A stretch of DNA of 64,000 nt from the NCBI RefSeq assembly GCF_024582815.1, contig NZ_CP102099.1, positions 2,728,001 to 2,792,000 of the forward strand, given 5' to 3'. The position numbers were made by a program, and so were the translations under genes. Source of the stretch: Acinetobacter colistiniresistens (GTDB lineage: Bacteria; Pseudomonadota; Gammaproteobacteria; Pseudomonadales; Moraxellaceae). Positions 5,828 through 29,137 of the stretch are shown here, piece after piece (the first letter of the stretch is position 1; each line of letters begins with the position of its first letter). The notes under the pieces are model-generated. The model was not told where the DNA came from. It ran no database searches and saw nothing but the letters and a program-made list of their open reading frames with translations.

Positions 5828-6805
5828 TCAAAGAAACCTATCAGAATGATTTGTCTGTTTCAATTCTGAATGAGTTTCGATTTGTTTCAATTCAGTTAGA
5901 AAGTTGCGGTAGCTTCTTATTACATGTCGACCAATTTGATATTTTTTTTGTAATTCGACAATTGTCATGGTTTCGAGATCAGATTGATGTTGTTTTACCC
6001 AATTTATTTTTTGTTGAGTATGTGAAATGTTAAGTATTTTCCTTAATTGGGCTCGACATCCACTTATAAAAAACTTGTTCGTATTAAATTTTTGAGCAAT
6101 TTGTTCCAATGGAATATCATTTCGTAATAACTCAATCTGATGATCCAGTATCCACTGCCTCTTGTCTTTTAACTGTTGTTGCCATTGTTCAGATTGAGTC
6201 GGTATATTTTTTTCTTGGCATGCTAAATCATGGATTATTTTTGAAATATAGTATGAGAAACCAAATTGCTTTTCTATCTCTTTAATATTGAGCCCAGACA
6301 ACTCTTCTTTATTTTCTTGAAACCATTGAATATGTTTTCTTTCGCAAGTTGATTCACGTTGTAGCTGTTTACGCACAATACCATGATGGAGTAAACGGTT
6401 TGTATACGAAACGATTTGGGGCTTTGTAAGGCCATATTTTTGAGATAGTACTTCATAACTGTCATAAAGAATTTCATCTTGGTGTTCAAGAATCCATTCA
6501 AAATTGTACGTTACGGGATGGGATAAGAAGAATCCAATCATTTTTCTAAACCGTCGAACAACAGGCTCAGAAAAACCTAGCGTATTAGTGATGTGGACAA
6601 TACTATGTTGTGTTATATATTCTGCAATTTCATTGGTTAAAATATAATAAAAATTAGCTTGCCCACCATTTTGAGGTGTTTCAGCATATGGCCATCCTTT
6701 ATAAACCATGATGCCTGCTTGAGTCTTGTATTCTTCGTATACATCCCAGTATTCACCTTCCCAGTCTTTTATAGTCATTATTTTGAAAATTTTATACTTT
6801 CCCAT
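5828..6805 (-). CDS. Unrecognised protein with tandem helix-turn-helix-like repeats
   Basis: I do not recognise this 325-aa protein. After a short N-terminal part (about 1-55) it has about five copies of a 40-aa unit at residues 60-91, 103-143, 160-196, 217-259 and 268-307. The pattern is W(I/F/V)xxHQxxL, then a short helix, a (K/Q)(Y/F)(G/N/Q) turn, and a second helix ending IxxYRxxL. This resembles homeodomain-like HTH units. There are no signal peptide or membrane segments. It ends 24 bp before vgrG on the same strand, so it may share a transcript. It could be a DNA-binding regulator, an adaptor, or an unrelated neighbour. Confidence 0.7.
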   Translation of the reverse strand: MGKYKIFKIMTIKDWEGEYWDVYEEYKTQAGIMVYKGWPYAETPQNGGQANFYYILTNEIAEYITQHSIVHITNTLGFSEPVVRRFRKMIGFFLSHPVTYNFEWILEHQDEILYDSYEVLSQKYGLTKPQIVSYTNRLLHHGIVRKQLQRESTCERKHIQWFQENKEELSGLNIKEIEKQFGFSYYISKIIHDLACQEKNIPTQSEQWQQQLKDKRQWILDHQIELLRNDIPLEQIAQKFNTNKFFISGCRAQLRKILNISHTQQKINWVKQHQSDLETMTIVELQKKYQIGRHVIRSYRNFLTELKQIETHSELKQTNHSDRFL

Positions 6806-7266
6806 TTGTTGCTTTATTTCACCTTCATTATTTTTTAACTTACTGGTTGAAGCCTTATTTAGTCAATAGAGTAAAGGAAATTTCATTTATGCAAATAATT
6901 TCATTAAAATTTTTTAAGAAGTCATCTCATTTTATTTCGGTTTGTCCCACTTAATCCCAGTATTCTTTAAATATTGCTAGTGGTACGTTTGGAATAAGAA
7001 TGACTGGTACGGTACGGACAAGAATGGGTGGTACATGAATACAAGAATATGCAATTAAAAATCTTTAGACAATGCATTGAATCAAGCAGAAATACTCGCA
7101 ACAGAATTAGCACTTTCTCAGCAACGAAACAGCGAGTTGCATGTTGAATATGAATAATCTCGCTATCTAAAATAAGTAGAAGATCAATGGATTAAGTTTA
7201 TGGACAGCATGATTCTTATCGGTCACTTTTTCCATTTTCTCTTTAAATTTTCTACTGATGAAAAAT
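6806..7266. other. Gene-free stretch with probable mobile-element debris
   Basis: No intact gene is seen. GGTAC motifs recur at 6982, 7006, 7011 and 7029 with GGAATAAGAATG-like and GGACAAGAATG-like text between them, reminiscent of the repeated ends of IS21-type elements. A broken coiled-coil-like reading frame (7068-7157, plus strand, reading AEILATELALSQQRNSELH) follows and stops without a start. Most likely a decayed insertion sequence; the family is a guess. Confidence 0.3.
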
Positions 7267-7962
7267 TCATGATTTAGCTTCTAATCCCTCAATAATCGCA
7301 TAGGCCGTGATACGGGCAGAAAATGGATTTTGACCTGTAATCAAGTTTTGATCTCGTACTACATTGGGTAGAAAAGGAATGAATTTTCTTTCATAGAGTG
7401 CGCCACGTTGTTTAGCAAGTTCTTCGGCGTTATAAGGAACTTTCTTTGCGACGCCAGCCAACACTTCTTCGCACCACGCAAAACCAGTCAGCTTTTTTCC
7501 AGTAATTAAATACTGTCCCGTAGAAAGTCGAACATTAAGCAATCCACAATAGCCATGACAGACACTGGCAACAATACCACCCTTTTCATAAATATTTTTG
7601 GTGATGTCCTGTAATTCTGCATTATTCAAAAAGTCCCACATCACACCATGTCCACCCGTGTAATAGATTGCATCATAATCTTGCCAATTAATCTCGGACG
7701 GCTTTTTGGTTGTCTCAAGCAGTTGCATAAATGCAGGATCATTTTTGCGTTTCAGGACAGATGAATCGGCAACAAAACGCTCTAATGATTTAGGTTCTAT
7801 TGGCGATAAGCCACCGTTTGGACTGACAATATCCTGAATATAATTTTGCTTTTCAAACTCATCATAGGCATGGGTAAGCTCACCTAACCACAGTCCAGTC
7901 GGTCGATTAATGCCTTCATACTCAGAGACATTGGTTACAACATGCAGGATACGTTTTGACAT
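7267..7962 (-). CDS. Cytoplasmic DJ-1/PfpI family protein (Hsp31/glyoxalase III-like)
   Basis: A 231-aa type 1 glutamine-amidotransferase-fold protein. The nucleophile elbow SVCHGYCG carries the conserved Cys, and YTGGHGVMWDF is a typical Hsp31/YhbO-like motif. Relatives act as glyoxalase III, deglycase or redox chaperone against reactive carbonyls; which applies here is inference. The ATG has a good AGGTG ribosome site. It is transcribed divergently from the MerR gene from a promoter with TTGACA-19 bp-TATAGT spacing, so it is very likely activated by that regulator. A secreted paralogue lies at 8576. Confidence 0.88.
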   Translation of the reverse strand: MSKRILHVVTNVSEYEGINRPTGLWLGELTHAYDEFEKQNYIQDIVSPNGGLSPIEPKSLERFVADSSVLKRKNDPAFMQLLETTKKPSEINWQDYDAIYYTGGHGVMWDFLNNAELQDITKNIYEKGGIVASVCHGYCGLLNVRLSTGQYLITGKKLTGFAWCEEVLAGVAKKVPYNAEELAKQRGALYERKFIPFLPNVVRDQNLITGQNPFSARITAYAIIEGLEAKS

Positions 7963-8008: not shown

Positions 8009-8039
8009 ACTATAAGCTTAAAGTTTGCTTGAATGTCAA
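8009..8039 (-). promoter_or_regulatory. MerR-type promoter for the DJ-1 gene at 7962 (site A)
   Basis: On the minus strand: -35 TTGACA (8039-8034), a 19-bp spacer, -10 TATAGT (8014-8009). The spacer holds the imperfect dyad TTCAAG-N5-CTTTAA. A 19-bp spacer is the hallmark of promoters that MerR proteins activate by DNA distortion. The divergent MerR gene starts 16 bp beyond the -35. Confidence 0.8.
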
Positions 8040-8054
8040 GAGGAAAACAGCAAG

Positions 8055-8468
8055 ATGAATATCAGCGAATTATCAAAACAAAGTGGTTTAAGCACGCCAA
8101 CCATTCGTTATTACGAACAAATCAAGCTGTTACCTAAGGCAAAACGTAAATCAAATGGTTATCGTGAATACAATGAAAATGATCTGAAACAGTTATTCCT
8201 GATCCAGCAAGCACAGCAAGTCGGCTTTTCTTTGACAGAAATTAAATCCTTTCTCCCTTCCAATTTAACAACATGGAACCATGATATTTTAATTGGCCTG
8301 CTCGAAAGTAAAATCAAAGACATTGAAGAACTTGAACAAAAATTAGCAATCAGTAAACAAAATCTGCAATTGATGATTATGGCCATTAATAATAAACCGG
8401 ATGAAATTACCTGTGAGGAAAATGCACAGCGCTTACTTAATCTTTACTATGTTAAAGATAAAACCTAA
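8055..8468 (+). CDS. MerR family transcriptional regulator of the 8-14 kb enzyme cluster
   Basis: A 137-aa regulator with a winged-helix N-terminus (ISELSKQSGLSTPTIRYYEQ) and a coiled-coil dimerisation helix (about 83-112). The reading frame is open upstream, but the ATG at 8055 follows an AGAGG site and matches the family's usual start. It has a single Cys (Cys120) and no CueR/ZntR-type metal-binding Cys loop, so a metal signal is unlikely; an organic or electrophilic signal is more plausible. Five nearby promoters share its expected 19-bp-spacer architecture (8009, 8515, 10865, 11932, 12145). Target assignment is inferred from position and motif. Confidence 0.88.
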   Translation: MNISELSKQSGLSTPTIRYYEQIKLLPKAKRKSNGYREYNENDLKQLFLIQQAQQVGFSLTEIKSFLPSNLTTWNHDILIGLLESKIKDIEELEQKLAISKQNLQLMIMAINNKPDEITCEENAQRLLNLYYVKDKT

Positions 8469-8514
8469 GCATGGTATCCAATAAAAGCCATTTATCAGAG
8501 ATCGATAAAAGCAC

Positions 8515-8545
8515 TTGACCTTAAACCCAACTTTAAACATAGCAT
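8515..8545 (+). promoter_or_regulatory. MerR-type promoter for the exported DJ-1 gene (site B)
   Basis: -35 TTGACC (8515-8520), 19-bp spacer, -10 TAGCAT (8540-8545). The spacer begins TTAAAC and contains CTTTAA, matching the dyad at the other four sites with one weakened half. It lies 30 bp before the ATG at 8576. Confidence 0.7.
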
Positions 8546-8575
8546 TTATCTCAGCTAATCAATGAGGAGCCTGTC

Positions 8576-9376
8576 ATGTTTAAAGCGTGGAATTTTAACA
8601 ACTGGTTGATCCGTATTTTCATGCTGATGTTGGCGAGTAGTCCAGTCTATGCCGCTGACGCTGCGAAACAGCAAGCTAAAATCAAAGACAAGATTTTAGT
8701 GGTCATGACCAACCACTCTGCTTACCCCACTCGATCAGATCACACTGGCTTATGGCTAACCGAACTCACCCATTTTTATGATGTCGCACAAACTGCAGGT
8801 TATGACATGGATTTTGTCAGCCCCCAAGGTGGTGCAGTCCCCTTGGATGAGCGTAGCCTCAAGTCAATTTATATGGATCAATCCGCAAAAAAACATCTGG
8901 CTGATCCTCAATTTATGCAACGCTTAAACAATACTCTGACGCCCAAAGCTATTGATCCTTCCCACTACAAAGCAATTTACTATACGGGTGGTCATGGCAC
9001 CATGTGGGATTTTCCCAATAGCCAAGGCTTAAAGCAGATCAGTGAAAAGATTTATCAGCAAGGCGGTGTTGTATCTGCGGTATGTCACGGCGTAGGCGGA
9101 TTATTGCCGCTTCAAACCGCAACGGGTCAAGCACTCATTGCAGGTCGTACGGTTACAGGCTTTGCCAATATTGAAGAGACCTTTTCAGGGATTAAGTCCC
9201 AAGTTCCGTTCTCTTTGCAAGATGGATTGATACAAAGAGGAGCAACATATAAACGGGCTTTTCTTCCCTTTACTTCTTATGTAATCACTGATGATCGGAT
9301 TATCACTGGACAAAATCCACAATCCAGTAAAGAAATTGCAGTGGCGGTCGTTAAGCGCTTAAAAATATTAAATTAA
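8576..9376 (+). CDS. Exported DJ-1/PfpI family protein
   Basis: A 266-aa paralogue of the DJ-1 protein at 7267, with an added N-terminal signal peptide (hydrophobic IRIFMLMLASSPVYA, likely cleaved before ADAAKQ). It keeps the nucleophile motif SAVCHGVGG and YTGGHGTMWDF. Export puts this carbonyl-stress enzyme or chaperone in the periplasm, which is uncommon for the family. An AGGAG ribosome site precedes the ATG. It has its own MerR-type promoter upstream and a terminator at 9392. Confidence 0.87.
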   Translation: MFKAWNFNNWLIRIFMLMLASSPVYAADAAKQQAKIKDKILVVMTNHSAYPTRSDHTGLWLTELTHFYDVAQTAGYDMDFVSPQGGAVPLDERSLKSIYMDQSAKKHLADPQFMQRLNNTLTPKAIDPSHYKAIYYTGGHGTMWDFPNSQGLKQISEKIYQQGGVVSAVCHGVGGLLPLQTATGQALIAGRTVTGFANIEETFSGIKSQVPFSLQDGLIQRGATYKRAFLPFTSYVITDDRIITGQNPQSSKEIAVAVVKRLKILN

Positions 9377-9391
9377 ACATCAGGCCTAAAG

Positions 9392-9415
9392 CCAGCTCAA
9401 AAGAGTTGGTTTTTT
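9392..9415 (+). terminator. Terminator after the exported DJ-1 gene
   Basis: Stem CCAGCTC/GAGTTGG (one G-T pair), loop AAAA, then a T-run. It starts 16 bp after the stop codon. Confidence 0.75.
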
Positions 9416-9512
9416 ATCGGCTCGATGATAGTCAATGGCACAGTCTGTCTGAGGAATTAAATACCTTTGAATTTGGACAGAAGCTATTTCATAAAATCTC
9501 CAATTGGTTCAC

Positions 9513-9548
9513 AAAAACCAATGACAGATTTTTCTATCATTGGTTTTT
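9513..9548. terminator. Bidirectional hairpin between convergent genes
   Basis: A 12-bp perfect stem (AAAAACCAATGA with TCATTGGTTTTT) flanked by A- and T-runs. It sits between the plus-strand DJ-1 gene and the minus-strand flavoprotein gene, so it can serve both. Confidence 0.8.
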
Positions 9549-9598
9549 GCTCGATCAATCTATTCTATTGCCCTAGTATTGACAACTTCTTGCTCAGT

Positions 9599-10837
9599 TT
9601 AAGATGAAAATGAATAGGTGCGCATCCGTTTTTTATATTGGCGCGTACGGCAAGTCATTGCTGTTTGCTGTAACGCCAATGCCCAGAGTGGAGATACCTT
9701 TGGATTGGTGGTTTTACCCAGACTGAGTTTACGTAACTGGAACTTCACTGTTGCCATGTTGGCAAGCGATGCTAAAGTTTTATTTTCCCATCTAATCGGT
9801 TTGAGTTCAGGTGCGTTATTTTGCCCTTGTTTCCATTCATTGGGGAGGTTGGGATCAATCGCGAGTGCTGTGGCAATCCCCACCATGTCAACACCGCTTT
9901 CAATCACCTGTTCCGCCACTTGTTTACGACGAATACCACCCGTCACCATCACAGGCATTTTTGCAACTTTAGCAATCTCTTGGGCAAATTCTAAGAAATA
10001 AGCTTCACGTGCCAAAGTACGCCCATCGCGTGCCTGACCTTGCATGGCAGGTGCTTCATAACTCCCACCAGACAGTTCGACCAAATCAACAGCCTGTTCA
10101 TTCAACATCATAACCACTTGCTGCGCATCTTCAGCACTGAAACCACCACGTTGGAAGTCAGCAGAATTGAGTTTGACTGCAACTGTAAAAGTGTCTGAAA
10201 CCACAGCACGTACTGCTTTGACAATCTCGATCAAAATACGCGCACGGTTTTCTAAAGAACCACCCCATTGATCTTGACGTTGATTGCTCAAGGGCGAAAG
10301 AAACTGACTCAATAAATAACCATGTGCTGCATGAATCTCAACACCAGTAAAGCCAGCTTTTTCTCCCAATCGTGCAGTATTGGCAAAACGTTGGATCACT
10401 TCATCAATCATGTCTTGGGTCATTTCAATCGGTGTATTAAAACGATCTGACATTTTGCCTAAATCCAGGGCAACTTCTGAAGGTGCCCAAGTTTCTTGAC
10501 CTAAATTGGCTTGCATTTGACGACCAGGATGATTAATTTGCAACCAAACTTGCGCCCCTTTAGAACGGCCAATTTTCGCCCAGCGTTTGAATGTATCCAA
10601 ATACTTTTCATCTTCCAGAACCACGCCACCAGGCCCTGTCATGGCACGACGATCCACCATCACATTACCCGTGATAATCAAACCAACACCACCATCTGCC
10701 CAAGCTTGATATAAGCGCATCAGTTCTTCAGATGGCGCATGATTTAAATCCGCCATGTTTTCTTCCATTGCAGCTTTTGCAATACGATTTGGGATATACG
10801 AACCATTTGGGAAAACTAATTTTTCAAACACTTTCAT
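9599..10837 (-). CDS. Old Yellow Enzyme-type NADH:flavin oxidoreductase
   Basis: A protein of about 412 aa with the FMN-binding TIM barrel of OYE enzymes, which reduce activated C=C bonds of enones and other electrophiles. Visible motifs are WLQINHPGRQ, EIHAAHGYLLSQFLSPLSN (substrate/FMN His region and family signature) and the phosphate-binding end VMVTGGIRRK. The frame is open to a GTG 9 bp upstream, but the ATG at 10837 has the AGAGGTG ribosome site. Its promoter (10865-10895) carries the cluster's best MerR-type dyad, which fits a role in electrophile defence. The in vivo substrate is unknown. Confidence 0.88.
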   Translation of the reverse strand: MKVFEKLVFPNGSYIPNRIAKAAMEENMADLNHAPSEELMRLYQAWADGGVGLIITGNVMVDRRAMTGPGGVVLEDEKYLDTFKRWAKIGRSKGAQVWLQINHPGRQMQANLGQETWAPSEVALDLGKMSDRFNTPIEMTQDMIDEVIQRFANTARLGEKAGFTGVEIHAAHGYLLSQFLSPLSNQRQDQWGGSLENRARILIEIVKAVRAVVSDTFTVAVKLNSADFQRGGFSAEDAQQVVMMLNEQAVDLVELSGGSYEAPAMQGQARDGRTLAREAYFLEFAQEIAKVAKMPVMVTGGIRRKQVAEQVIESGVDMVGIATALAIDPNLPNEWKQGQNNAPELKPIRWENKTLASLANMATVKFQLRKLSLGKTTNPKVSPLWALALQQTAMTCRTRQYKKRMRTYSFSS

Positions 10838-10864
10838 TTTTGTCACCTCTTTGACGATGTCTTT

Positions 10865-10895
10865 ACTTTAAGATTAAAGTAAACTTTAATGTCAA
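10865..10895 (-). promoter_or_regulatory. MerR-type promoter for the OYE gene (site C)
   Basis: On the minus strand: -35 TTGACA (10895-10890), 19-bp spacer, -10 TAAAGT (10870-10865). The spacer contains a perfect dyad, TTAAAGT-TT-ACTTTAA. The -10 is only about 27 bp from the start codon, so the leader is very short. Confidence 0.8.
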
Positions 10896-10933
10896 GCGGT
10901 TTTATCTCCGTTCATATATGCGTTCTTAAAATA

Positions 10934-10963
10934 AAAAAGAGAGGCATCAATGCCTCTCTTTTT
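10934..10963. terminator. Terminator after the alpha/beta hydrolase gene
   Basis: A 14-bp stem with AAAAAGAGAGGCAT paired to its complement around a 2-nt loop, with T-runs on both strands. It separates the hydrolase gene from the promoter of the OYE gene. Confidence 0.88.
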
Positions 10964-10993
10964 CAGTTTAAACTTGAATATCATCAATCACCC

Positions 10994-11824
10994 TTATGCG
11001 CGGATAAATGCCAATAGATCTGGATTAATCACATCCGCATTGACCGTGAGCATCCCATGTGAGAAACCTTTATAGGTTTTTAAAGTCCCATTTTTTACCA
11101 ACTTTGCAGACAATACCCCAGAGTTTTCATAAGGTACAACCTGATCATCGTCACCATGCATTACCAGTACAGGGACTGAAATCTTTTTTAAATCCTCAGT
11201 AAAATCAGTCTGAGAAAAAGCCACAATCCCATCATAATGTGCTTTGGCACCGCCCATCATGCCTTGACGCCACCAATTCCAGATTACTGGCTCGGAAGGT
11301 TTCGCATTTGGACGGTTAAATCCATAGAAAGGACCTGCGGGTAAATCATAGTAAAATTGCGAACGGTTTTTAAATAACTGGTTTTGCAAGTCGTCGAAGA
11401 CTTCTTTCGGTAAACCATTTGGATTACTCGCTGTTTTCACCATAATGGGCGGAACTGCACTGACCAAAACTGCCTTAGAAACATTTGCTTCACCATGGCG
11501 TGCAATATAGTGAGCCACTTCACCGCCACCTGTTGAGTGACCAATATGCACCGCATTTTTTATACCGAGATGTTGTACCACCGCAGCGACATCGTCTGCA
11601 TAATGGTCCATATCATGACCATCCCAAACCTGACTTGAACGACCATGACCGCGACGATCATGTGCCACAACACGGAAACCTTCATTCAAAAAGAATAACA
11701 ATTGAGCATCCCAATCATCTGAGCTGAGCGGCCAACCATGATGAAAAAATAAGACCTGTGCATCGCGAGGTCCCCAATCTTTATAAAAAATATCTACACC
11801 ATCTTTTGTCGTAACGTAAGCCAT
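10994..11824 (-). CDS. Alpha/beta hydrolase (non-heme chloroperoxidase/arylesterase type)
   Basis: A 276-aa hydrolase of the cofactor-free haloperoxidase/esterase group. The nucleophile is Ser97 in GHSTGGG; HHGWPLSSDDW forms the oxyanion loop; HGDDDQVVP holds the acid and GFSHGM the catalytic His. There is no signal peptide, so it is cytoplasmic. An AGGAG-like site precedes the ATG. Its upstream promoter (11932-11962) is one of the five MerR-type sites, placing it in the same response as the DJ-1 and OYE genes. The natural ester substrate is unknown. Confidence 0.87.
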   Translation of the reverse strand: MAYVTTKDGVDIFYKDWGPRDAQVLFFHHGWPLSSDDWDAQLLFFLNEGFRVVAHDRRGHGRSSQVWDGHDMDHYADDVAAVVQHLGIKNAVHIGHSTGGGEVAHYIARHGEANVSKAVLVSAVPPIMVKTASNPNGLPKEVFDDLQNQLFKNRSQFYYDLPAGPFYGFNRPNAKPSEPVIWNWWRQGMMGGAKAHYDGIVAFSQTDFTEDLKKISVPVLVMHGDDDQVVPYENSGVLSAKLVKNGTLKTYKGFSHGMLTVNADVINPDLLAFIRA

Positions 11825-11931
11825 CTTTGTTTCTCCTGTGTAAGATTTACACTGTCGAGTTCTGATCTATGTTCTAATCAATGTTCGTGGAATCACATAT
11901 TTTTCAAACTATCCGCATGGATAGTGACTCT

Positions 11932-11962
11932 ATACTAAGATTAAAGTTAGCTTTAAGGTCAA
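11932..11962 (-). promoter_or_regulatory. MerR-type promoter for the alpha/beta hydrolase gene (site D)
   Basis: On the minus strand: -35 TTGACC (11962-11957), 19-bp spacer, -10 TAGTAT (11937-11932). The spacer has TTAAAG-N4-CTTTAA, then TCT immediately before the -10 as at sites C and E. It lies about 108 bp before the start codon. Confidence 0.78.
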
Positions 11963-12144
11963 CATAATTAGTCCCATTCTGATAACAAAAATGTAATTTA
12001 ATGCTTAATAACTCACAGTGATTGATCCTGCTTAATATTTGAAATCTAAATTTTTATTTCTATAGCACAGACTTTTTGTGCGAATTATCTTTACATTGTT
12101 ATAACGAATCCGTGATGTGTGTTTCAAGTCATCAATTTTCCTAC

Positions 12145-12175
12145 TTGACTTTAAAGTTGGCTTTAATCTTATAGT
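12145..12175 (+). promoter_or_regulatory. MerR-type promoter for the Adc-like/reductase pair (site E)
   Basis: -35 TTGACT (12145-12150), 19-bp spacer, -10 TATAGT (12170-12175). The spacer has TTAAAG-N4-CTTTAA. It reads toward the gene at 12247. Sites D and E lie in one 422-bp intergenic region and face opposite ways. Confidence 0.8.
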
Positions 12176-12246
12176 GACTCTCAAGCAATCAATGTGCAGG
12201 TCTTGGCATAAGACTGGATGGATTGGGTCAATATAGGTTAACCAAC

Positions 12247-13143
12247 ATGAATAGTCGTCAGCAATTTACTGAAGTTGAATTTGGAGAGCAAAAAGTCAAA
12301 GTACCGAAAGGTGGTTACTATGATCGCTTTAGCATGCATCCCGATTTAGACCAAGTCGCTCAAGATCCTGCAGCGGGGAATATTGATTTCTTCCGTAAGA
12401 TTCCTAAAAAACTGCTTGAATCCAGAGTCGGCCCTGTTTGGGCTCCCAATTTTTATTATCGTAGCGCTAATGTGCAGGTCCTGATGCTCGCACCGCTTAA
12501 ACAACTCAAGAAAAAACTGCCTGCTCCTTTAGAACCACTACAGGCTTTTCCGGGTTATGGACTGGCCGCACTCACCTTCTTTACTTATTCTGTTTGTGAT
12601 AACGACCCATATAACGAAGTCTCAGTCGCAATTGTAGTGCGCCAACCCGATGCACGTGGCCCACATGCACTGGAACTGATCAACTCGATTCGGCAACGAC
12701 ATTTCTATGCTCATGTTTTAGCTCTACCAGTTGATACAGAAATAGCACGGGTACGCGGCGTTTATGGCTATCAGTTGCCCAAGTGGCTGACTGAGATTAA
12801 TGTCGACATCAACCCGATCGAGGTGAATGCCAATTTGATGGATACGGAAGGAAAAATTGATTTAAGCCTCAGCGCAGCAACGCCACCTTTACAGCAAGTG
12901 CAGTCAGAGACACGAACCAGTGAAGCAACAATGCTACATTTGGTGGATCACAAATGGCATCAAACACACGTGCAATCGAATATCCTCTCTTTTGCACAAA
13001 CCTTGTTGCCGAGAAAAGTGAATTTGGTTCGTCATGGTGGGCCTTTAAGCCAGTTATTGGATGAACTTGGTGCATCGAAAATTCTTCGTTTAGATGTGAT
13101 TCAAGATGCCCAAGTTGCGCTACATTTACCGCAAGCACTTTAA
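12247..13143 (+). CDS. Acetoacetate decarboxylase family protein
   Basis: A protein of about 298 aa related to acetoacetate decarboxylase (ADC fold). The motif GYQLPKWLTEI aligns with the ADC active-site PKK: the Schiff-base Lys is present, but the second Lys that tunes it is replaced by Trp. It may therefore catalyse an aldolase, dehydratase or hydrolase-like reaction instead of decarboxylation. An upstream TTG is open in frame, but the ATG at 12247 has an AGG site and starts a more usual N-terminus. It is followed 37 bp later by the reductase gene, with which it likely shares the MerR-type promoter. Confidence 0.8.
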   Translation: MNSRQQFTEVEFGEQKVKVPKGGYYDRFSMHPDLDQVAQDPAAGNIDFFRKIPKKLLESRVGPVWAPNFYYRSANVQVLMLAPLKQLKKKLPAPLEPLQAFPGYGLAALTFFTYSVCDNDPYNEVSVAIVVRQPDARGPHALELINSIRQRHFYAHVLALPVDTEIARVRGVYGYQLPKWLTEINVDINPIEVNANLMDTEGKIDLSLSAATPPLQQVQSETRTSEATMLHLVDHKWHQTHVQSNILSFAQTLLPRKVNLVRHGGPLSQLLDELGASKILRLDVIQDAQVALHLPQAL

Positions 13144-13180
13144 AAATTCAAACGATCAAACAACTAAGGAAAAATAACAC

Positions 13181-14425
13181 ATGAACCAAACAAAATATGA
13201 TCTTGTGGTCTTCGGCGCCACCAGTTTTGTTGGCCAGATCCTCACCCGATATCTGGCAGAATACTTTGCTGACCACAAAGAACAGCTGAATTGGGCAATT
13301 GCAGGACGTTCACAGCAAAAACTACAACACGTAAAAGATGCTTTAGGCACAGCAGGACAAGCTATCCCGATCTTGGTTGCTGATGCCAACAATCAAACCG
13401 AACTCGATGCGCTTTGTGCACAAACCCGTGTAGTGGTCTCAACGGTTGGCCCATATGCTTTATACGGTGAACCTTTGGTTCAAGCTTGTGTAAACAATGG
13501 GACAGATTATTGCGATCTGACTGGAGAAACCCAGTGGATTAAACAAATGATCACTAAATATGAAGCGCAAGCCCAGCAATCAGGTGCGCGTATTGTGCAT
13601 TGCTGTGGTTTTGACTCAGTTCCATCCGACATGGGGGTCTATTATTTACAACAACAAGCACAGCAACAGTTTAATGCACCTGCGACCCAAGTCAGCATGC
13701 GAGTCAGAACCTTAAAAGGTGGTGCATCGGGTGGCACAGTGGCAAGTTTGATCAATGTCGTTCAAGAAGCCGCTGCCGACCCTGCTTTACGTAAAGATCT
13801 GCTCAATCCCTATATCCTTTGTCCTGCAGATCATGGCAATACCCAAAGACAAATTTATATCAAAACAGCCAAATTCGACCCCGATTTTAATGCATGGATT
13901 GCACCTTTTGTGATGGCTGCTGTCAATGAACGTGTGGTCCATCGCTCAAATGCCTTATCTGGCAATGCCTATGGCAACAACTTTAGCTATAACGAAGCCA
14001 TATTGACGGGTGAAGGGCTAAAAGGACGATTAAAAGCTTTAGGCGTGGTTTCTGGTCTAGCTGCTTTTATGCTCGCGGCAGTGAGTAAACCAATCAGCCA
14101 AGTCATGGAACGTTATTTATTGCCAAAACCAGGTGAAGGCCCAACTCCAGAACAACAGCTAACAGGCCGATTTGACCTACGTTTTGTGGGTAAAACAGAT
14201 GCAGGACAAAGCCTGAAAGTTAAAGTCACAGGTGACCGTGATCCTGGTTACGGTTCTACAGGAAAAATGTTGGGACAAGCTACATTGAGTCTTGCAATTG
14301 ACCATGCCAAAGACAGTGAAAAAGTTGGACGTAACGGTGGATTTTGGACACCTGCGACGATGTTTGATGATCGCTTCATTCAACGTTTAACTGATCATGC
14401 AGGGCTCAAATTTGAACAGATTTGA
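13181..14425 (+). CDS. Saccharopine dehydrogenase-like NAD(P)-binding reductase
   Basis: A 414-aa protein with an N-terminal Rossmann fold (VVFGATSFVGQILTRYLAEY) and AIAGRSQQKL, typical of the saccharopine dehydrogenase/trans-acting enoyl reductase family. TVGPYALYGEPLVQAC and GFDSVPSDMG are family motifs. Family members reduce enoyl or imine groups; no lysine-biosynthesis context is present, so a true saccharopine role is unlikely. It is second in a pair with the Adc-like gene, spaced 37 bp, and probably co-transcribed from site E. Confidence 0.83.
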   Translation: MNQTKYDLVVFGATSFVGQILTRYLAEYFADHKEQLNWAIAGRSQQKLQHVKDALGTAGQAIPILVADANNQTELDALCAQTRVVVSTVGPYALYGEPLVQACVNNGTDYCDLTGETQWIKQMITKYEAQAQQSGARIVHCCGFDSVPSDMGVYYLQQQAQQQFNAPATQVSMRVRTLKGGASGGTVASLINVVQEAAADPALRKDLLNPYILCPADHGNTQRQIYIKTAKFDPDFNAWIAPFVMAAVNERVVHRSNALSGNAYGNNFSYNEAILTGEGLKGRLKALGVVSGLAAFMLAAVSKPISQVMERYLLPKPGEGPTPEQQLTGRFDLRFVGKTDAGQSLKVKVTGDRDPGYGSTGKMLGQATLSLAIDHAKDSEKVGRNGGFWTPATMFDDRFIQRLTDHAGLKFEQI

Positions 14426-18934: not shown

Positions 18935-19243
18935 TTATTTTGCGCCGCACTTGCCGTCTGCAACTTTTTTATCCGCACCGCATTTTGCATCCGCTGCTTT
19001 TTTAGTTGCTCCACACTTTGCATCCGCTGCTTTTTTGGCCGCACCGCATTTCGCTTCAGCAGATTTTTGCTGATGTTTTGCTTTATTGGCACCACATTTC
19101 GCTTCACCACACTTTCCATCCGCGGCTTTGCTGGCATGTGTTTCTGTGGTTGTTGGTGTTGCTGCAACAGCGACATGGGTTACGCCAGCAACTGAAAGTG
19201 CCAATAATGCTGCAACTGAGGTCATTGAATTAAGTTTGCTCAT
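18935..19243 (-). CDS. hvfA: HvfA-type RiPP metallophore precursor with six KCG motifs
   Basis: A 102-aa secreted precursor peptide. The signal peptide is about residues 1-27 (VAALLALSVAGVTHVAVA). The mature part has six KCG motifs with Cys at 45, 50, 66, 77, 88 and 99. The last four lie exactly 11 residues apart (KKAADAKCGA-type repeat). The outer motifs are DGKCG, near the EGKCG consensus that MNIO enzymes modify; the inner four read (E/D)AKCG, with Ala in place of Gly. The ATG at 19243 has a GGA site. Family role: periplasmic or secreted copper-binding modified peptide. Confidence 0.88.
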   Translation of the reverse strand: MSKLNSMTSVAALLALSVAGVTHVAVAATPTTTETHASKAADGKCGEAKCGANKAKHQQKSAEAKCGAAKKAADAKCGATKKAADAKCGADKKVADGKCGAK

Positions 19244-19406
19244 TGTTCTATTCCTTTTAAGGTTATTTCTCGGTTTGTACACAGGTACATAAAGTTAGAC
19301 GGTATAAATCCCAATTTATTACAGTGCAAATAAAAAAAAATTTATGTAAGAAACAGAATCCTCACCCGACTAATGATCATTCAATCCTATTCGGTGTGAA
19401 ATTATC

Positions 19407-20175: not shown

Positions 20176-20859
20176 ATGCGAATACTTCTAGTTGAAGATG
20201 AACAAAAAACGGGGGACTATCTCCAAAAAGGCCTAACCGAAGCTGGTTATGTAACTGATTGGAGTCAGGACGGTATCTCAGGTTTACATCTGGCCGTGAC
20301 AGAACAATATGACCTGATCATTTTGGATGTGATGCTGCCGAAACTGGATGGCTGGAAGATTCTCACGGAGATTCGCAAAGTAAATACCTTCCTCCCCGTG
20401 CTGTTTCTGACGGCCAAAGACCAAATTGAAGATCGAGTCAAAGGCCTGGAACTCGGTGCAGATGATTTCCTGATTAAACCCTTTGCCTTTGCTGAATTGC
20501 TCGCACGGATTAAAACTCTGTTGAAACGCGGTCAGATTAAAGAAGAACAAACTTTTTACGCAGTTGCAGACTTACATCTTGATTTGATTAAACGGCGTGT
20601 GGTGCGTTCTGGACAACGGATTGACCTGACCGCCAAAGAGTTTTCTTTATTGGAACTCTTTATGCGCCGCCAAGGTGAAGTATTACCCAAGTCACTGATT
20701 GCTGCACTGGTTTGGGATATCAATTTTGATAGCGATACCAATGTGGTTGAAGTTGCGATTCGACGCTTGAGAAATAAGATTGATACCGATTTTAGCCCCA
20801 AGCTGATTAGAAACATACGTGGTATGGGTTATGTCCTAGAGATTGAAGATGAGAAATAA
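20176..20859 (+). CDS. copR: Heavy-metal (copper) response regulator, CopR/CusR type
   Basis: A 227-aa OmpR-family regulator. The receiver domain has phospho-acceptor Asp51 ([13 protein letters not shown]) and [11 protein letters not shown]; the C-terminal winged helix has [20 protein letters not shown] and RRLRNKID. Context and the two CopR-type boxes (20094, 23824) point to copper. It overlaps the sensor kinase gene by 11 bp, so the two are translationally coupled. The insertion element downstream does not touch it. Confidence 0.9.
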
Positions 20860-22231
20860 ATTATTTCGTTCCATCGCTTTTAGGATCAGCTTTATTTCAA
20901 CCTTATTCACGACGTTGATCCTGATTGTCATGGGGATATTCGTTAATCAACATGTCGTCAATTATTTTTATCAACAAAACCAAAAAGAAATTGAAGGTAA
21001 AATTCAACTGATTGAAAACTTGTTCCAACAAAAACCCAGCAATTTTAAAGACAGTTTAGATGAGGCGCTGATTGGGCATGATAATCTGCTGATCCAGATC
21101 AAACTTGCCAATGGCCAAATTCTTTATAACAAAAAAAATATGCACGCTGACCTCAATCAATTGATTCAACAAAAGAATGGGCGTTGGATCAATTGGAAAC
21201 ATAATAATCAGAGCTATCAAGGCATTGTTGTCAATAAAACCATTCGTTATGACCAAAGTAGTCAAAACATGCAAATTATTGCTGCGATTGAAGTTACCGA
21301 TAACTATTATTTCCTGCACTCGTTTAAACAGCAGTTGCTCATGGTTGGCCTACTCGGGGTGATTGGCCTGATGTTTTTAGGATGGTGGGCAACTTGGCAA
21401 GGGCTAGGCCCGATTCGAAAAATGGCAAAACTTTCAGAAAATATTTCTGCAAATAATCTTTCTAACCGCCTCGATCTGAGCAATGTGCCAATTGAACTAG
21501 CCCCACTGGCCACGGCATTTAATGACATGCTGAATCGTTTGGAAATCTCAGTTGACAAACTTTCTGCATTCTCAAGTGACTTGGCTCATGAAATTAGAAC
21601 CCCAATCAATAATCTGATGATGCAAACCCAAGTTTCATTAACCAAGCCAAGAACGCTAGAACAATATCAAGATGTACTATTCTCAAATCTGGAAGAATAT
21701 GAACATCTGGCCAAAATGATTTCAGATATGTTGTTTCTAGCAAAATCTGATCATAATCTGGCACTGAAAAACAAGAAAAATATCGATTTAGCGCAAGAAA
21801 TGGAAGTTCTGTTTGAATATTTCGAAGCTTTTGCCTCGGAAAAGCAGATTCAATTCAAACTAACAGGTCAGGCATCGATTCAAGCTGAACCAGCCATGAT
21901 TCGTAGAGCCTTCAATAATTTAATTTCCAATGCAATTAAATACGGTGAACCAGATTCAATCTTAGAAATCAAACTGAGCCAAGATGATCGACACTCGATG
22001 ATTCAGATTAAAAATAAAGTATCTGCTGAAATGCAAGTGCTTAGCCCTTTACAGCTTTCACGCTTTTTTGACCGATTTTATCGGCTAGACTCATCCCGAC
22101 ACAAAGCGGAAGATGGCACCGGCTTAGGACTGGCAATCACCAAATCGATTATTGAAATTCACCATGCAACAATTGATGTCTTTATTGAAGAAGAAAATAT
22201 TGTCTTTAGAATGGTTTTTAAAGTGGAATGA
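20849..22231 (+). CDS. copS: Heavy-metal sensor histidine kinase, CopS/CusS type
   Basis: A 460-aa inner-membrane kinase. There are two membrane helices (about 9-35 and 160-180) around a periplasmic sensor loop, then HAMP, HisKA ([18 protein letters not shown]) and an ATPase domain ([23 protein letters not shown]). A TTG lies 6 bp upstream, but the ATG at 20849 is the natural start. An IS3-family element sits 1 bp after the stop codon (the 3-bp target duplication includes the last two stop bases), leaving the protein intact while removing its original downstream sequence. Confidence 0.9.
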
Positions 22232-22271: not shown

Positions 22272-23174
22272 TTAGGCCACCTGACCTAACGGGTTAATCT
22301 TATCATAGTACATTGCTTCAAACTCAAAAGGCGATACATAACCCAGTGCACTGTGTACACGCTTTTTATTGAACCAATCTACCCAGTTTAGTGTCGCAAG
22401 TTGTACATCTGCTAAACCTTGCCAATCTGCTTTTAAATATTCAATCACCTCTGTTTTGTATAAGCCATTCACCGTTTCAGCCAGAGCATTATCGTATGAA
22501 TCACCTGTCGTACCGACTGATGCTCGTAAATTTGCAGCATCTAAACGATTGGTATAGCGAATAGAAAGATATTGAACACCTCTATCGGAATGATGAATCA
22601 CATTCTTTGGCATGCCTCGATCGTGCAATGCTTGCTCCAATGCATCGAGCACCATATCTGTATTCATCCGTGTAGATACTTTCCATCCAACAATTGCTCG
22701 TGAGAACACATCAATAATAAAGGCGGTATAGACCCAGCCTGAATGTGTTTGAATATACGTAAAGTCACTGACCCATAATTGGTCAGGTCGATCAGCACTA
22801 AAATTCCGTTTCACTAAATCATCTGCTCGTTTTTGATCATCTCGGCTACGGGTGGTTTGTTTATTCTTACCACGCCAAACACCTTGTATACCTAGCTTTT
22901 GCATCAATCGAGCAACTGTACAACGTGCAATAACATAACCCTCACGTTTCAATTTTTGCCAAACTTTACGTACACCATATCGACCTGAACTTTCTTTCCA
23001 AATACGTTTGATTTGCTCTGCATGATGTAAATCATGCAGAGCACGTTTCGCTCGATGTTCTGGGTTATCAACGAAATCTAAAGCCCGATAATAGGTCGAA
23101 GCTGCAATCGGTAAAATTCTACAAATCGCTTCAACACCATATAACGCCTTATTGTTATGGATAAAATCCACCAT
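22272..23174 (-). CDS. IS3-family transposase OrfB (DDE catalytic subunit), copy 1
   Basis: A 300-aa integrase-core transposase. The DDE residues fall in VSDFTYIQTHSGW, NVIHHSDRGVQYLS and SYDNALAETVNGLYKTEVI; the N-terminal HTH_21 region includes GRYGVRKVWQKLKREG. Its ATG overlaps the orfA stop as TAATG, so it may be made by re-initiation as well as any frameshift fusion. Intact. Confidence 0.93.
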   Translation of the reverse strand: MVDFIHNNKALYGVEAICRILPIAASTYYRALDFVDNPEHRAKRALHDLHHAEQIKRIWKESSGRYGVRKVWQKLKREGYVIARCTVARLMQKLGIQGVWRGKNKQTTRSRDDQKRADDLVKRNFSADRPDQLWVSDFTYIQTHSGWVYTAFIIDVFSRAIVGWKVSTRMNTDMVLDALEQALHDRGMPKNVIHHSDRGVQYLSIRYTNRLDAANLRASVGTTGDSYDNALAETVNGLYKTEVIEYLKADWQGLADVQLATLNWVDWFNKKRVHSALGYVSPFEFEAMYYDKINPLGQVA

Positions 23175-23491
23175 TATTTGTGTGGGCGGTCGAGCTCCGC
23201 CTGGGCGAAAAAAGCGGCTGCTTTACGTAGAATTTCATTGGCACGTTTTAATTCTTTAATTTCACGTTCCATTTGCTTCATTTTTTCTTGGTCAGATACC
23301 TGTTGTACTTTGGCGGGATTTTGTTGATCTAAGTATTTTTGATACCAAACACGAAGTGTTTCAGGAGTACAGCCAATTTTAGGAGCAATTGCGGAAACTG
23401 CTGCCCAATTCGATGGATAATCTTTTTCAGATTCAATTAGTAATTGAACCGCTCTTTCTCTAATTTCGGGGGTATAGTTTGGTTTTTTCAT
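23174..23491 (-). CDS. IS3-family transposase OrfA (HTH subunit), copy 1
   Basis: A 105-aa protein with an N-terminal helix-turn-helix (AVSAIAPKIGCTPETLRVW) and a C-terminal leucine-zipper-like helix (KMKQMEREIKELKRANEILR), which binds the IS ends and pairs with OrfB. Intact and the same as in copy 2. Confidence 0.93.
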   Translation of the reverse strand: MKKPNYTPEIRERAVQLLIESEKDYPSNWAAVSAIAPKIGCTPETLRVWYQKYLDQQNPAKVQQVSDQEKMKQMEREIKELKRANEILRKAAAFFAQAELDRPHK

Positions 23492-25768: not shown

Positions 25769-25799
25769 TTGACCTTCCCATAATGTCAAGGTCTATGCT
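25769..25799 (+). promoter_or_regulatory. CueR-type promoter of copA
   Basis: -35 TTGACC (25769-25774), 19-bp spacer, -10 TATGCT (25794-25799). The dyad GACCTT (25771-25776) and AAGGTC (25788-25793) is the usual CueR operator. The regulator gene lies just downstream of copA. Confidence 0.88.
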
Positions 25800-25833
25800 G
25801 AAAGCAATCGGATTATCTCTATAGGTCTATCTT

Positions 25834-28320
25834 ATGGAAATGCAAACAAATACAATCGCTCAAGACATGAAAGTCACCCTTCAAGTAGAAGGCATGACCT
25901 GTGCCAGTTGTGTCGGTCGAGTTGAAACAGCACTTAAAAAGGTCGATGGCGTTGCATCTGCTTCGGTGAATCTGGCAACTGAACGTGCCGATATTACTTT
26001 GGCAAAACCTGTTGATCGTCAGGAATTGATTAAAGCGATTGAGCAAACAGGTTATGACGTCCCTGCCAATAAGGTGGAATTGGCAATTGAAGGCATGACT
26101 TGTGCCTCATGTGTCAGTCGTGTCGAAAAAGCCCTAACTGCTGTTGCAGGCGTACAAAGTGCCAATGTTAATCTTGCAACTGAACGTGCAACCGTGAGCG
26201 GTAATGCCAGCATCGATAGTCTCATCGCAGCAATTGATAAAGCAGGTTACGATGCTAAAGAAATACAGGCCTCTATTCCAGATCAAACTGAACAACTCGA
26301 AAAAAAAGATCAAGAACGAGCTGAGCTTAAACGTGACTTGATTATTGCGACAGTTCTCGCCTTGCCTGTGTTTATCTTGGAAATGGGTTCTCATCTGATT
26401 CCCGGTGTTCATCAACTGATTGAACAAACCATTGGCATGCAAAATAGTTGGTATCTCCAATTCGTTTTAACCAGCTTGGTCCTGATTATTCCGGGGCGCC
26501 GTTTTTATCTCAAAGGTCTTCCCGCCTTATTCCGTTTAGCACCTGATATGAACTCTTTGGTTGCTGTCGGTACACTCGCTGCCTATTTATTTTCATTGGT
26601 TGCAACGTTTACACCGAAGCTACTCCCTGCTGGAACGGTCAATGTTTATTACGAAGCCGCCGCTGTGATTATTGCTTTAATCCTGCTTGGTCGTTTTCTT
26701 GAGGCCAAGGCCAAAGGACGGACATCTGAGGCGATTCAGCGCTTAGTTAGCTTACAGGCAAAAGTGGCCCATGTTTCACGTGATAACCATGTCATTGATA
26801 TCCCAATTGATCAAGTCGTCTCTGGTGATTTTGTTATTGTCAAACCTGGTGAACGAATCCCTGTTGATGGTGAGGTGATTGAAGGACAAAGTTTTGTCGA
26901 TGAATCGATGATTACCGGTGAACCAATCCCTGTTGAGAAAAATCTCGGCAGTCAGGTCGTTGGTGGCACCATTAACCAGAATGGTACTTTGAGTTTTAAA
27001 GCTGTCGCTGTCGGTGGTGACACCATGCTGGCGCAGATCATTCGTCTGGTCGAGCAAGCACAAGGCGCTAAAATGCCGATTCAAGCCGTAGTCGATAAAG
27101 TGACCTTATGGTTTGTACCTGCGGTGATGATTGCTGCGCTGCTCACCTTCCTTGTCTGGCTAATTTTCGGCCCTTCTCCTGCTTTAACCTTTGCACTAGT
27201 GAATGCGGTGGCCGTGCTGATTATTGCCTGTCCCTGTGCCATGGGCTTGGCAACACCAACCTCAATCATGGTCGGTACTGGACGGGCTGCAGAACTTGGC
27301 ATCCTGTTCCGTAAAGGTGAAGCATTACAGTTATTAAAAGATGCCCGAGTGGTTGCGGTGGATAAGACGGGTACCTTGACTGAAGGTCATCCAGTACTGA
27401 CTGATTTTGAAGTGACATCTACCTTTGATCGGAATAACGTCCTCAGTCTGGTTGCAGCAGTTGAAGTACTTTCTGAACATCCCATTGCCAAAGCCATTGT
27501 CGATGCGGCAAAAAATGAAGGTTTAGATTTGCCAAAGGTTGATCGCTTTGATTCAGTCACAGGTATGGGTGTCAATGCCACTGTGAATGAAAACCAGAAC
27601 ATTTACATTGGTGCAGACCGTTATATGACTGAACTTGGTCTGGATATCACGCCATTTTCCCATACAGCACAACGTTTGGGCGATGAAGGTAAATCTCCAC
27701 TGTATGTGGCGATTGATGGTGCTTTGGCAGGGATTATTGCAGTTGCAGATCCAATTAAAGACACCACCCCTGCTGCCATTCAAGCATTGCATCAACTGGG
27801 TCTAAAAGTAGCCATGATTACGGGGGACAATGCGCGTACCGCACATGCGATTGCCAAACAACTCGGGATTGATGAAGTAATTGCCGAAGTTCTACCTGAG
27901 GGTAAAGTCAATGCCGTGCAGGAATTGAAAGTAAAATATGGCAATATTGCCTTTGTCGGTGATGGTATTAATGATGCACCAGCATTGGCTCAGGCCGATG
28001 TCGGCCTTGCGATTGGAACAGGTACGGATGTTGCGATTGAATCTGCGGATGTCGTACTGATGTCTGGGAACTTGCAAGGCGTTGCCAATGCAATTGCACT
28101 GTCTAAAGCAACCATCGGCAATATTCATCAAAACTTGTTCTGGGCCTTCGCTTATAACACGTTATTGATCCCTGTGGCTGCGGGTGTACTGTACCCTGCT
28201 TATGGCATCCTGATGTCTCCGATTTTTGCCGCAGCTGCGATGGCGCTTTCAAGTGTATTTGTACTTGGAAATGCACTGCGTTTACGCCGTTTCCAACCAC
28301 CGTCTGTGCACAACGTGTAA
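25834..28320 (+). CDS. copA: Copper-exporting P1B-type ATPase CopA
   Basis: An 828-aa Cu(I) pump of the inner membrane. There are two N-terminal heavy-metal domains with GMTCASC (Cys23/26 and about Cys93/96), a TGEP actuator loop ([11 protein letters not shown]), the membrane ion site CPC ([13 protein letters not shown]), the phosphorylated Asp in [21 protein letters not shown] (nucleotide-binding HP motif) and [14 protein letters not shown]. It removes Cu(I) from the cytoplasm to the periplasm. It is followed by cueR with stop-start contact and is driven by the CueR-type promoter at 25769. Confidence 0.96.
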
Positions 28321-28331
28321 TGGAGGATATG

Positions 28332-28790
28332 ATGAATATTGGTAAAGTCTCTCAAGCTTCAGGCGTAACCAGCAAAATGATCCGCTATTATGAACAGATT
28401 GGTTTAATTCCAGCAGCGGGACGTAGCAATGCAGGCTATCGCTCTTATTCAGATAATGATGTGGAACGTTTGAAATTTATCAAACGCAGCCGTGAATTGG
28501 GCTTTTCGGTCACAGAAATTACCGATTTGCTTGACTTATGGAGTAACAGCAATCGCCATAGTGCTGATGTAAAACATTTGGCTCAATCACATATCCAAAA
28601 ACTGGAACAGCGTATCCAAGATTTACAGCAAATGGTGCAAACATTGCAAACTTTAGTGGATTGTTGTGCTGGCGACCATCGACCTGATTGTCCAATTCTT
28701 GAAGGGCTTAAAGAGCCTTTGAATGAAAGTAGAGATATTCACTCTCACAATGATCTGCTTTCAATTTCACCCTTGGCAGGGAAAAAATAG
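28332..28790 (+). CDS. cueR: Cu(I)-responsive MerR-family regulator CueR
   Basis: A 152-aa MerR regulator. The N-terminal HTH is GKVSQASGVTSKMIRYYEQ; the metal loop DCCAGDHRPDCPILEGL places Cys at 111, 112 and 120, matching the CueR Cu(I) ligands at 112 and 120. A GGAGG site directly after the copA stop favours the ATG at 28332 over in-frame ATGs slightly upstream. It should activate copA and copZ, both of which have CueR-type 19-bp-spacer promoters. Confidence 0.95.
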   Translation: MNIGKVSQASGVTSKMIRYYEQIGLIPAAGRSNAGYRSYSDNDVERLKFIKRSRELGFSVTEITDLLDLWSNSNRHSADVKHLAQSHIQKLEQRIQDLQQMVQTLQTLVDCCAGDHRPDCPILEGLKEPLNESRDIHSHNDLLSISPLAGKK

Positions 28791-28796
28791 AATCAG

Positions 28797-28825
28797 CAAA
28801 GGCTATAGCAATATAGCCTTTGTTT
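28797..28825 (+). terminator. Terminator after cueR
   Basis: Stem AAAGGCTATA/TATAGCCTTT around a short loop, followed by GTTTTT, 7 bp or so after the stop codon. Confidence 0.75.
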
Positions 28826-28842
28826 TTGAAATATTTCCAAAT

Positions 28843-28869
28843 AAAAAAGCGGCTGATCGCCGCTTTTTT
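28843..28869. terminator. Terminator after copZ (bidirectional)
   Basis: An 11-bp stem AAAAAAGCGGC/GCCGCTTTTTT with loop TGATC, 13 bp past the copZ stop on the minus strand. Confidence 0.85.
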
Positions 28870-28881
28870 AACACTATATGC

Positions 28882-29070
28882 TTAACGTGGTGGGAAACCC
28901 GCTTCTGATAATGCATCAGCAACTTGCTGCTGCGTTGCCGTGGTTTCGACTTTCACACTACGATTCGGGGGATCAGTAATCACTTTTGCATTTGCATCTA
29001 CGGCCTGAATAGCGCGCGTTACACCACGTGCACAACCACCACAAGTCATATTTTCAACATGAAATTCCAT
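28882..29070 (-). CDS. copZ: CopZ-like copper chaperone (heavy-metal-associated domain)
   Basis: A 62-aa single HMA-domain protein with the metal motif MTCGGC (residues 8-13) and GFPP at the end. Such chaperones carry Cu(I) to CopA in the cytoplasm. It is convergent with copA-cueR and has its own CueR-type promoter (29107-29137), so both are induced together. Confidence 0.92.
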   Translation of the reverse strand: MEFHVENMTCGGCARGVTRAIQAVDANAKVITDPPNRSVKVETTATQQQVADALSEAGFPPR

Positions 29071-29106
29071 CGCAAAACTCCATTCAGTTTTTAAGAAGAT
29101 GAATAG

Positions 29107-29137
29107 ACTATAAACCTTGCTATTATGGCAAGGTCAA
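29107..29137 (-). promoter_or_regulatory. CueR-type promoter of copZ
   Basis: On the minus strand: -35 TTGACC (29137-29132), 19-bp spacer, -10 TATAGT (29112-29107). Dyad ACCTTGC-N6-GCAAGGT in the spacer region, the classic CueR operator type. Confidence 0.85.

Follow-up and report, generated by a model that had tools for sequence, protein, structure and literature searches.

What switches on the enzyme genes that surround a small MerR-family regulator gene, merR, in Acinetobacter colistiniresistens? The genes lie in a stretch of 64,000 nucleotides (contig NZ_CP102099.1, positions 2,728,001 to 2,792,000; hereafter the window) and encode an OYE-family oxidoreductase, two DJ-1/PfpI proteins, an alpha/beta hydrolase and a pair of acetoacetate-decarboxylase-like (Adc-like) and saccharopine-dehydrogenase-like (SDH-like) proteins. 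The original prediction, made from the DNA letters, held that five promoters in this region carry one MerR-type operator and form a probable undescribed regulon for electrophile or carbonyl stress. Our analysis points the same way: with a probability of roughly two in three, the locus is a compact electrophile/carbonyl regulon under a single MerR-family activator, with Cys120 of the regulator as the likely target.

Five promoters of 31 bp, listed here with their sequences written in one orientation, lie where they had been placed:

8009–8039, minus strand: promoter/operator of DJ1a, TTGACATTCAAGCAAACTTTAAGCTTATAGT, 1 mismatch
8515–8545, plus strand: promoter/operator of DJ1b, TTGACCTTAAACCCAACTTTAAACATAGCAT, 1 mismatch
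10865–10895, minus strand: promoter/operator of OYE, TTGACATTAAAGTTTACTTTAATCTTAAAGT, 0 mismatches
11932–11962, minus strand: promoter/operator of ABH, TTGACCTTAAAGCTAACTTTAATCTTAGTAT, 0 mismatches
12145–12175, plus strand: promoter/operator of the Adc-like/SDH-like pair, TTGACTTTAAAGTTGGCTTTAATCTTATAGT, 0 mismatches

They share one architecture, in which TTGAC plus one base is followed after exactly 19 bp by TANNNT, and the spacer holds the dyad TTAAAG-N4-CTTTAA. The dyad is perfect in the sites at 10865, 11932 and 12145, and its left half deviates by one base at 8009 (TTCAAG) and 8515 (TTAAAC). A dyad operator inside a -35/-10 spacer of 19–20 bp is a feature of the MerR family, found in all five sites at 19 bp. 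Ribosome-binding sites and start codons follow the sites at plausible spacing. The site at 8009–8039 ends 15 bp before the ATG of merR and is thus probably also autoregulatory.

The promoter skeleton by itself (TTGACN-N18-21-TANNNT) occurs 16 times in the window against 13.1 expected, which is not above chance, and the dyad alone was dropped as a genome-wide marker, since at up to one mismatch it occurs at 61 places per strand versus 45 for a reversed control. Dyad and promoter combined, with up to three mismatches allowed, retrieve only these five sites from the window; shuffled sequences gave a mean of 0.04, and none of 100 reached five. Across the 3.9-Mb genome there are five matches with zero or one mismatch, all in the locus, and four scattered ones with three mismatches, the reversed pattern giving none on the forward strand and one on the reverse. 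The positions, the spacers and the three perfect dyads of the original prediction are borne out by the sequence.

The genes of the locus are as follows:

7267–7962, minus strand: DJ1a, DJ-1/PfpI protein, Hsp31/glyoxalase III-like (PF01965, 51.4 bits)
8055–8468, plus strand: merR, MerR-family regulator of 137 amino acids with a single cysteine, Cys120 (PF13411, 64.9 bits)
8576–9376, plus strand: DJ1b, DJ-1/PfpI protein with a signal-peptide-like N-terminus, judged by eye (PF01965, 41.3 bits)
9599–10846, minus strand: OYE, OYE-family FMN oxidoreductase (PF00724, 191 bits)
10994–11824, minus strand: ABH, alpha/beta hydrolase of the non-heme chloroperoxidase/esterase type (PF00561, 107 bits)
12247–13143, plus strand: Adc-like protein, a weak label (PF06314, 26.2 bits, below the cut-off of 29.8)
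13181–14425, plus strand: SDH-like NAD(P)-binding protein (PF03435, 57.3 bits)

The Pfam matches agree with the gene classes first read behind the sites, the Adc label being the doubtful one. Compared by sequence with solved structures, DJ1a is nearest to a ThiJ/PfpI protein (4p5p) and then to a chain without a functional name, with yeast YDR533c/Hsp31 (1qvv) and glyoxalase III (4lru) as further relatives. The nearest structure to OYE is 7fev, followed by NADPH dehydrogenase/YqjM-type enzymes; its start is more likely the ATG at 10837, which is preceded by AGAGGTG. ABH is closest to esterase 1zoi (E 1e-151) and non-heme chloroperoxidase 4dgq (E 3e-151), and no relative of the Adc-like or SDH-like protein was found in the PDB by sequence at E ≤ 0.001. 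The reading of merR as the only MerR gene of the window that is not CueR-like also held, the window having two MerR genes, merR and a CueR-like gene at 28320–28790. Genome-wide, the MerR_1 model finds six matches.

The original prediction had suggested looking for co-occurrence of the sites and merR across Acinetobacter. We sampled 149 genomes of the genus, taking as orthologs matches at E ≤ 8e-50, which are 60–100% identical. An ortholog is present in 42 of them, the best match among the rest reaching E 3e-20. Sites with up to two mismatches occur in 42/42 genomes with merR and in 16/107 without (197 versus 18 hits; Fisher p 4e-24). At least three sites are found in 38/42 of the former and 0/107 of the latter, and the 16 exceptional genomes have one or two matches each. 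Reversed-pattern matches occur in 8/42 and 23/107 genomes, respectively. In five loci (L064–L068; loci are numbered with L, genomes with G) the gene order is rearranged and the sites are still with the same genes, which is better evidence than the Fisher values.

Each site was assigned the longest frame on its strand that starts no more than 300 bp away; some of the loci are near-copies of each other. In 60 of 64 loci there are 165 sites with up to two mismatches, 155 of which front homologs of the window's genes or merR: OYE (45), Adc-like (34, of which 19 at ≤66% identity to that of the window), hydrolase (27), the two DJ-1 genes (20 and 19), SDH-like (6) and merR itself (4). The remainder are four SDR/epimerase genes (L156, L180, L181, L231), one aldehyde dehydrogenase and five sites without an assigned gene. 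A separate operator precedes the SDH-like gene in the rearranged loci L064, L065, L067, L068, L162 and L165, and in several loci, such as L057, a second SDH-like gene lies closely 3' of OYE. In A. haemolyticus (L053, 14479–16018) the site that elsewhere precedes the Adc-like/SDH-like pair fronts the aldehyde dehydrogenase (PF00171). In L156, from genome G065, the site lies at 7844–7874 and the SDR gene at 6873–7820; L180, L181 and L231, all with merR, also have a similar SDR gene behind the operator.

Beyond the genus, a named relative of the regulator is in Alkanindiges illinoisensis (71% identical), and the distant orthologs are 38–49% identical. A search with an ortholog profile found 12 further genomes at E ≤ 1e-24 among the 293 sampled from the order; counting that of the window there are 13, in 6 of 118 genera. 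Draws of 369 genomes from the class and 398 from the phylum gave more matches, whose scores fall sharply from ≥169 bits to ≤111. We examined the loci of all 12 order genomes, of 11 new first-tier genomes from the phylum draw and of four of the 29 second-tier genomes; the 23 first-tier loci span nine families besides the window's own. A site with up to two mismatches is present in 12/12 order and 8/11 phylum-draw loci (20/23), and with up to three in 12/12 and 11/11 (23/23), the reversed control being found in 0/23. An OYE gene with a site adjoins merR in 17/23 loci, namely 10/12 of the order (L182–L191) and 7/11 of the phylum draw (L234–L240), and OYE is the commonest target outside Acinetobacter. 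In the second tier, three of the four loci (L242, L243, L245) likewise have merR, OYE and a site together. This pairing in distant loci suggests that merR and OYE with this operator are probably the oldest visible unit, and that the form seen in Acinetobacter is an expansion of it.

That one regulator serves all five sites, by predicted binding, is strongly supported by its co-occurrence with them, by the rearranged loci and by the loci of distant genera. The original prediction had named conservation of the dyad in genomes lacking merR as evidence against itself. This was mostly not seen, the 16/107 lying below the 23/107 of the reversed control, the perfect site of G065 being the part that goes the other way.

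The product of merR has the N-terminal winged helix of the MerR family, and in its predicted structure (pLDDT 83.5) Cys120 opens the last helix. Cys120 lies where the dimerisation region ends towards the C-terminus, the place at which metal-sensing relatives hold their metal. The nearest named MerR relative, from A. gyllenbergii, is 98% identical. Cys120 is kept in 29/29 proteins of the Acinetobacter loci, 12/12 of the order and 11/11 of the phylum draw, as well as in 119/120 database hits, the sole exception ending before position 120. It is the single cysteine in 28/29 Acinetobacter proteins (L056 has a second at the last residue), and 117/120 database hits have one cysteine. An initial statement that every ortholog has exactly one cysteine was corrected, as L056, L182, L185, L235 and L239 have two; L182, L185 and L235 hold Cys52, the NmlR/AdhR position, together with Cys120. 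Among second-tier proteins L242 and L243 have one cysteine, L245 two and the CueR-like L244 four. Our first phylum-set alignment comprised 12 of the 14 proteins of L231–L243 and L245, two second-tier ones having been dropped by a bit-score filter and L244 excluded deliberately. A later check of position 120 covers all 15 proteins (L231–L245) and finds cysteine in 15/15, L244 included, so that this column alone cannot separate the subclass from CueR-like proteins.

How such a system could work follows from known relatives. MerR-family activators keep promoters with 19–20-bp spacers silent until they distort the DNA, which turns the promoters on (PMC9909328, in excerpt). In AdhR, a MerR protein with one conserved cysteine, methylglyoxal or formaldehyde leads to induction of a DJ-1 gene, for which S-alkylation has been proposed (excerpts of PMC3499171, PMC4776306 and PMC11577753). 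We propose that a dimer of the merR product would sit on TTAAAG-N4-CTTTAA between the -35 and -10 boxes. The 19-bp spacing is too long for sigma-70 polymerase, and the resting dimer would keep the promoters nearly off. On a signal the DNA would be kinked and the boxes aligned, turning on all five transcripts together. The likeliest signal would be a thiol-reactive electrophile, such as an alpha,beta-unsaturated carbonyl, a quinone or a dicarbonyl, modifying Cys120; the OYE-type reductase, the two DJ-1 proteins, the chloroperoxidase-type hydrolase and the Adc-like/SDH-like pair would then clear electrophiles or repair their damage. A carbonyl or electrophile signal is plausible on the strength of the enzyme classes, the near-invariant cysteine and the AdhR precedent, and the additional members found in other loci (aldehyde dehydrogenase, SDR), together with that cysteine, make it somewhat more likely.

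Several observations weigh against this interpretation. The Fisher values, which go down to 2e-31, overstate the case because genomes and loci share ancestry. We inspected six of the 16 genomes that have a match and lack merR. G065 has a perfect site before its SDR gene; G048 and G054 have kept some target genes with imperfect sites; and G051 retains a hydrolase gene that is truncated and neighbours a transposase-like one (in L158 the hydrolase frame is truncated beside a transposase-like gene, labelled by eye, and in L159 the sites have two and three mismatches). In G133 and G059 the match falls inside a coding frame, and the coding-frame matches of L160 and L161 were taken as chance. The sites of G048, G051 and G054, with one to three mismatches, may have decayed after loss of merR; sites with one or two mismatches occur in genomes with merR too. 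Among the distant loci, three of the 11 from the phylum draw reach only three mismatches, OYE is not beside merR in 6/23, and the second-tier, CueR-like L244 has neither site nor OYE. None of the first genes, assigned for 160 of the 165 sites, encodes an AdhA/AdhC-type dehydrogenase. A sensor site in which Cys120 would be joined by Trp74 and His76 from the other chain of the dimer was dropped, these two residues being only partly conserved outside Acinetobacter (Trp74 in 5/12 and 10/12, His76 in 9/12 and 8/12 of the two protein sets). A tree was likewise abandoned as proof of a subclass, since its support for grouping the orthologs of Acinetobacter with the others (83/37) is too weak. Lastly, OYE and DJ-1 genes also respond to oxidants and hypochlorite, so that the enzyme classes do not fix the signal.

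Could the sites belong to a different regulator, or this regulator to a known clade? That another MerR protein of the genome (CueR-, SoxR- or ZntR-like) owns the sites, the neighbouring merR being incidental, is very improbable. Five further MerR genes exist in the genome, and a similar 7-4-7 dyad is used by SoxR; however, all 149 Acinetobacter genomes have some match to the merR product at E ≤ 0.001, yet multiple sites follow the ortholog only, and the pairing holds in other families. Loci around 56 other MerR genes gave no site at up to three mismatches, a weak control for SoxR and CueR of Acinetobacter as most are alphaproteobacterial. CueR is the top-scoring NCBIfam model for the merR product (TIGR02044, 80.1 bits against a cut-off of 147.4) and is also among its best solved structures by sequence. 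The two proteins share a cysteine in the C-terminal segment; CueR has a two-cysteine metal site there, whereas merR encodes one cysteine, and a separate CueR-like gene, adjacent to a copA-like one, is present in this genome. The SoxR model scores 33.3 against 116.9 bits (TIGR01950), and SoxR binds its [2Fe-2S] cluster with four cysteines (PMC9909328, in excerpt), unlike the single one here. It is also improbable, if less so, that merR is merely a new member of the true NmlR/AdhR clade. A DJ-1 gene is among the targets in both (PMC11577753, in excerpt), but the cysteine at 52/54, described as absolutely conserved in the clade (PMC4776306, in excerpt), is replaced by glutamine at positions 52 and 54 in 29/29 Acinetobacter proteins, and Cys52 occurs in only 3/24 others. 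The NmlR model NF041849 gives 56.5 bits against a cut-off of 175, a weak test as the two control genomes, B. subtilis and L. lactis, matched the model and yet also fall below; at E ≤ 1e-30 none of 274 genomes of the class matched it, this one included.

The remaining alternatives keep the regulon and change its signal or its purpose. An oxidant (hypochlorite, peroxide or a nitrosothiol) that oxidises Cys120 or links it in a disulfide is unlikely: a near-invariant cysteine fits either chemistry and the hydrolase resembles non-heme chloroperoxidases, but OYE, the Hsp31/glyoxalase III-like protein, SDR and aldehyde dehydrogenase under one site point to carbonyls. We also consider it rather unlikely that the regulon is metabolic and serves to degrade its inducer, for example an aromatic from plants or lignin, as food. 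The A. haemolyticus aldehyde dehydrogenase under a site (best NCBIfam match benzaldehyde dehydrogenase, below cut-off) and the Adc-like and hydrolase genes would suit that idea; however, none of the assigned first genes encodes a transporter or a ring-cleavage enzyme, and the targets encode single-step modifying enzymes and DJ-1 proteins. An electrophile/carbonyl regulon remains our preferred reading.

It is instructive to set this regulon beside its closest counterparts. The AdhR (YraB) regulon of Bacillus subtilis, in the NmlR clade, likewise combines MerR-family control, one conserved cysteine and a DJ-1/PfpI target, and by analogy with its carbonyl response (described in the excerpts cited above) the signal here may be a carbonyl too. 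The two differ in the sensor cysteine (position 52 in AdhR, the candidate here at 120) and in the targets, which are adhA-yraA and yraC there and OYE, hydrolase and Adc-like/SDH-like genes besides DJ-1 here. The AdhR operator reportedly reads CTTAAAG-N4-CTTTAAG, with the same core as our consensus; if so, the motif first noticed in the window would be a DNA code already known elsewhere, here used by a proteobacterial system that has no name yet. Electrophile sensing also governs an OYE-type enzyme in NemR-nemA of Escherichia coli, which serves glyoxal detoxification; NemR is a TetR-family repressor, whereas the regulator here belongs to the MerR family and is proposed to be an activator. NmlR of Haemophilus and Neisseria controls a formaldehyde-related adhC-estD operon through Cys54 (PMC4776306, in excerpt), unlike this locus. 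Searches of titles, abstract openings and passages yielded no description of a comparable MerR protein in control of an OYE gene. The claim that the system is undescribed therefore stands for this variant in the literature searched and not for its kind, which is known, since AdhR, whose operator reportedly has the core found here, also controls a DJ-1 gene according to the excerpts.

Other features of the window are noted briefly. Between a helix-turn-helix gene (5828–6805) and DJ1a, the segment 6860–7260 has no listed frame of at least 90 amino acids and possibly holds the remains of a pseudogene. The segment 16677–19282 contains an ECF-sigma-like gene, DUF2063-like and DUF692-like genes and a small exported-looking protein (18935–19282, minus strand) with repeated KCGA-type cysteine motifs, which we take to resemble a copper-binding 'bufferin' cluster. 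An IS3-type transposase pair (22272–23491) lies beside a response regulator/sensor kinase pair (20176–22231), both labelled by eye. At 25769–29137, a CopA-like ATPase gene (25834–28320) and the CueR-like gene, labelled by eye, are accompanied by two CueR-type promoters (25769–25799, plus strand; 29107–29137, minus strand), a second and different MerR dyad with a 19-bp spacer.

More broadly, we hold at even odds that merR represents a widespread gammaproteobacterial MerR subclass (in the wide GTDB sense) that senses electrophiles through Cys120, has an OYE-type ene-reductase as its core target and has expanded to five or six promoters in Acinetobacter, the reportedly AdhR-like 7-4-7 operator having been kept and the sensor, which would lie in another domain than that of AdhR, moved or reinvented. 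Cys120 offers a single-residue hypothesis open to one reporter experiment, and the promoter is defined well enough that it could be used as a biosensor for electrophiles. If the proposal is true, the Adc-like/SDH-like pair would gain a functional context, the MerR family would gain a thiol-based subclass whose sensor lies at the end of the protein that elsewhere carries the metal site, and one regulator would explain inducible OYE-type reductases and their partners in Acinetobacter as well as in nine or more further families from its order and class.

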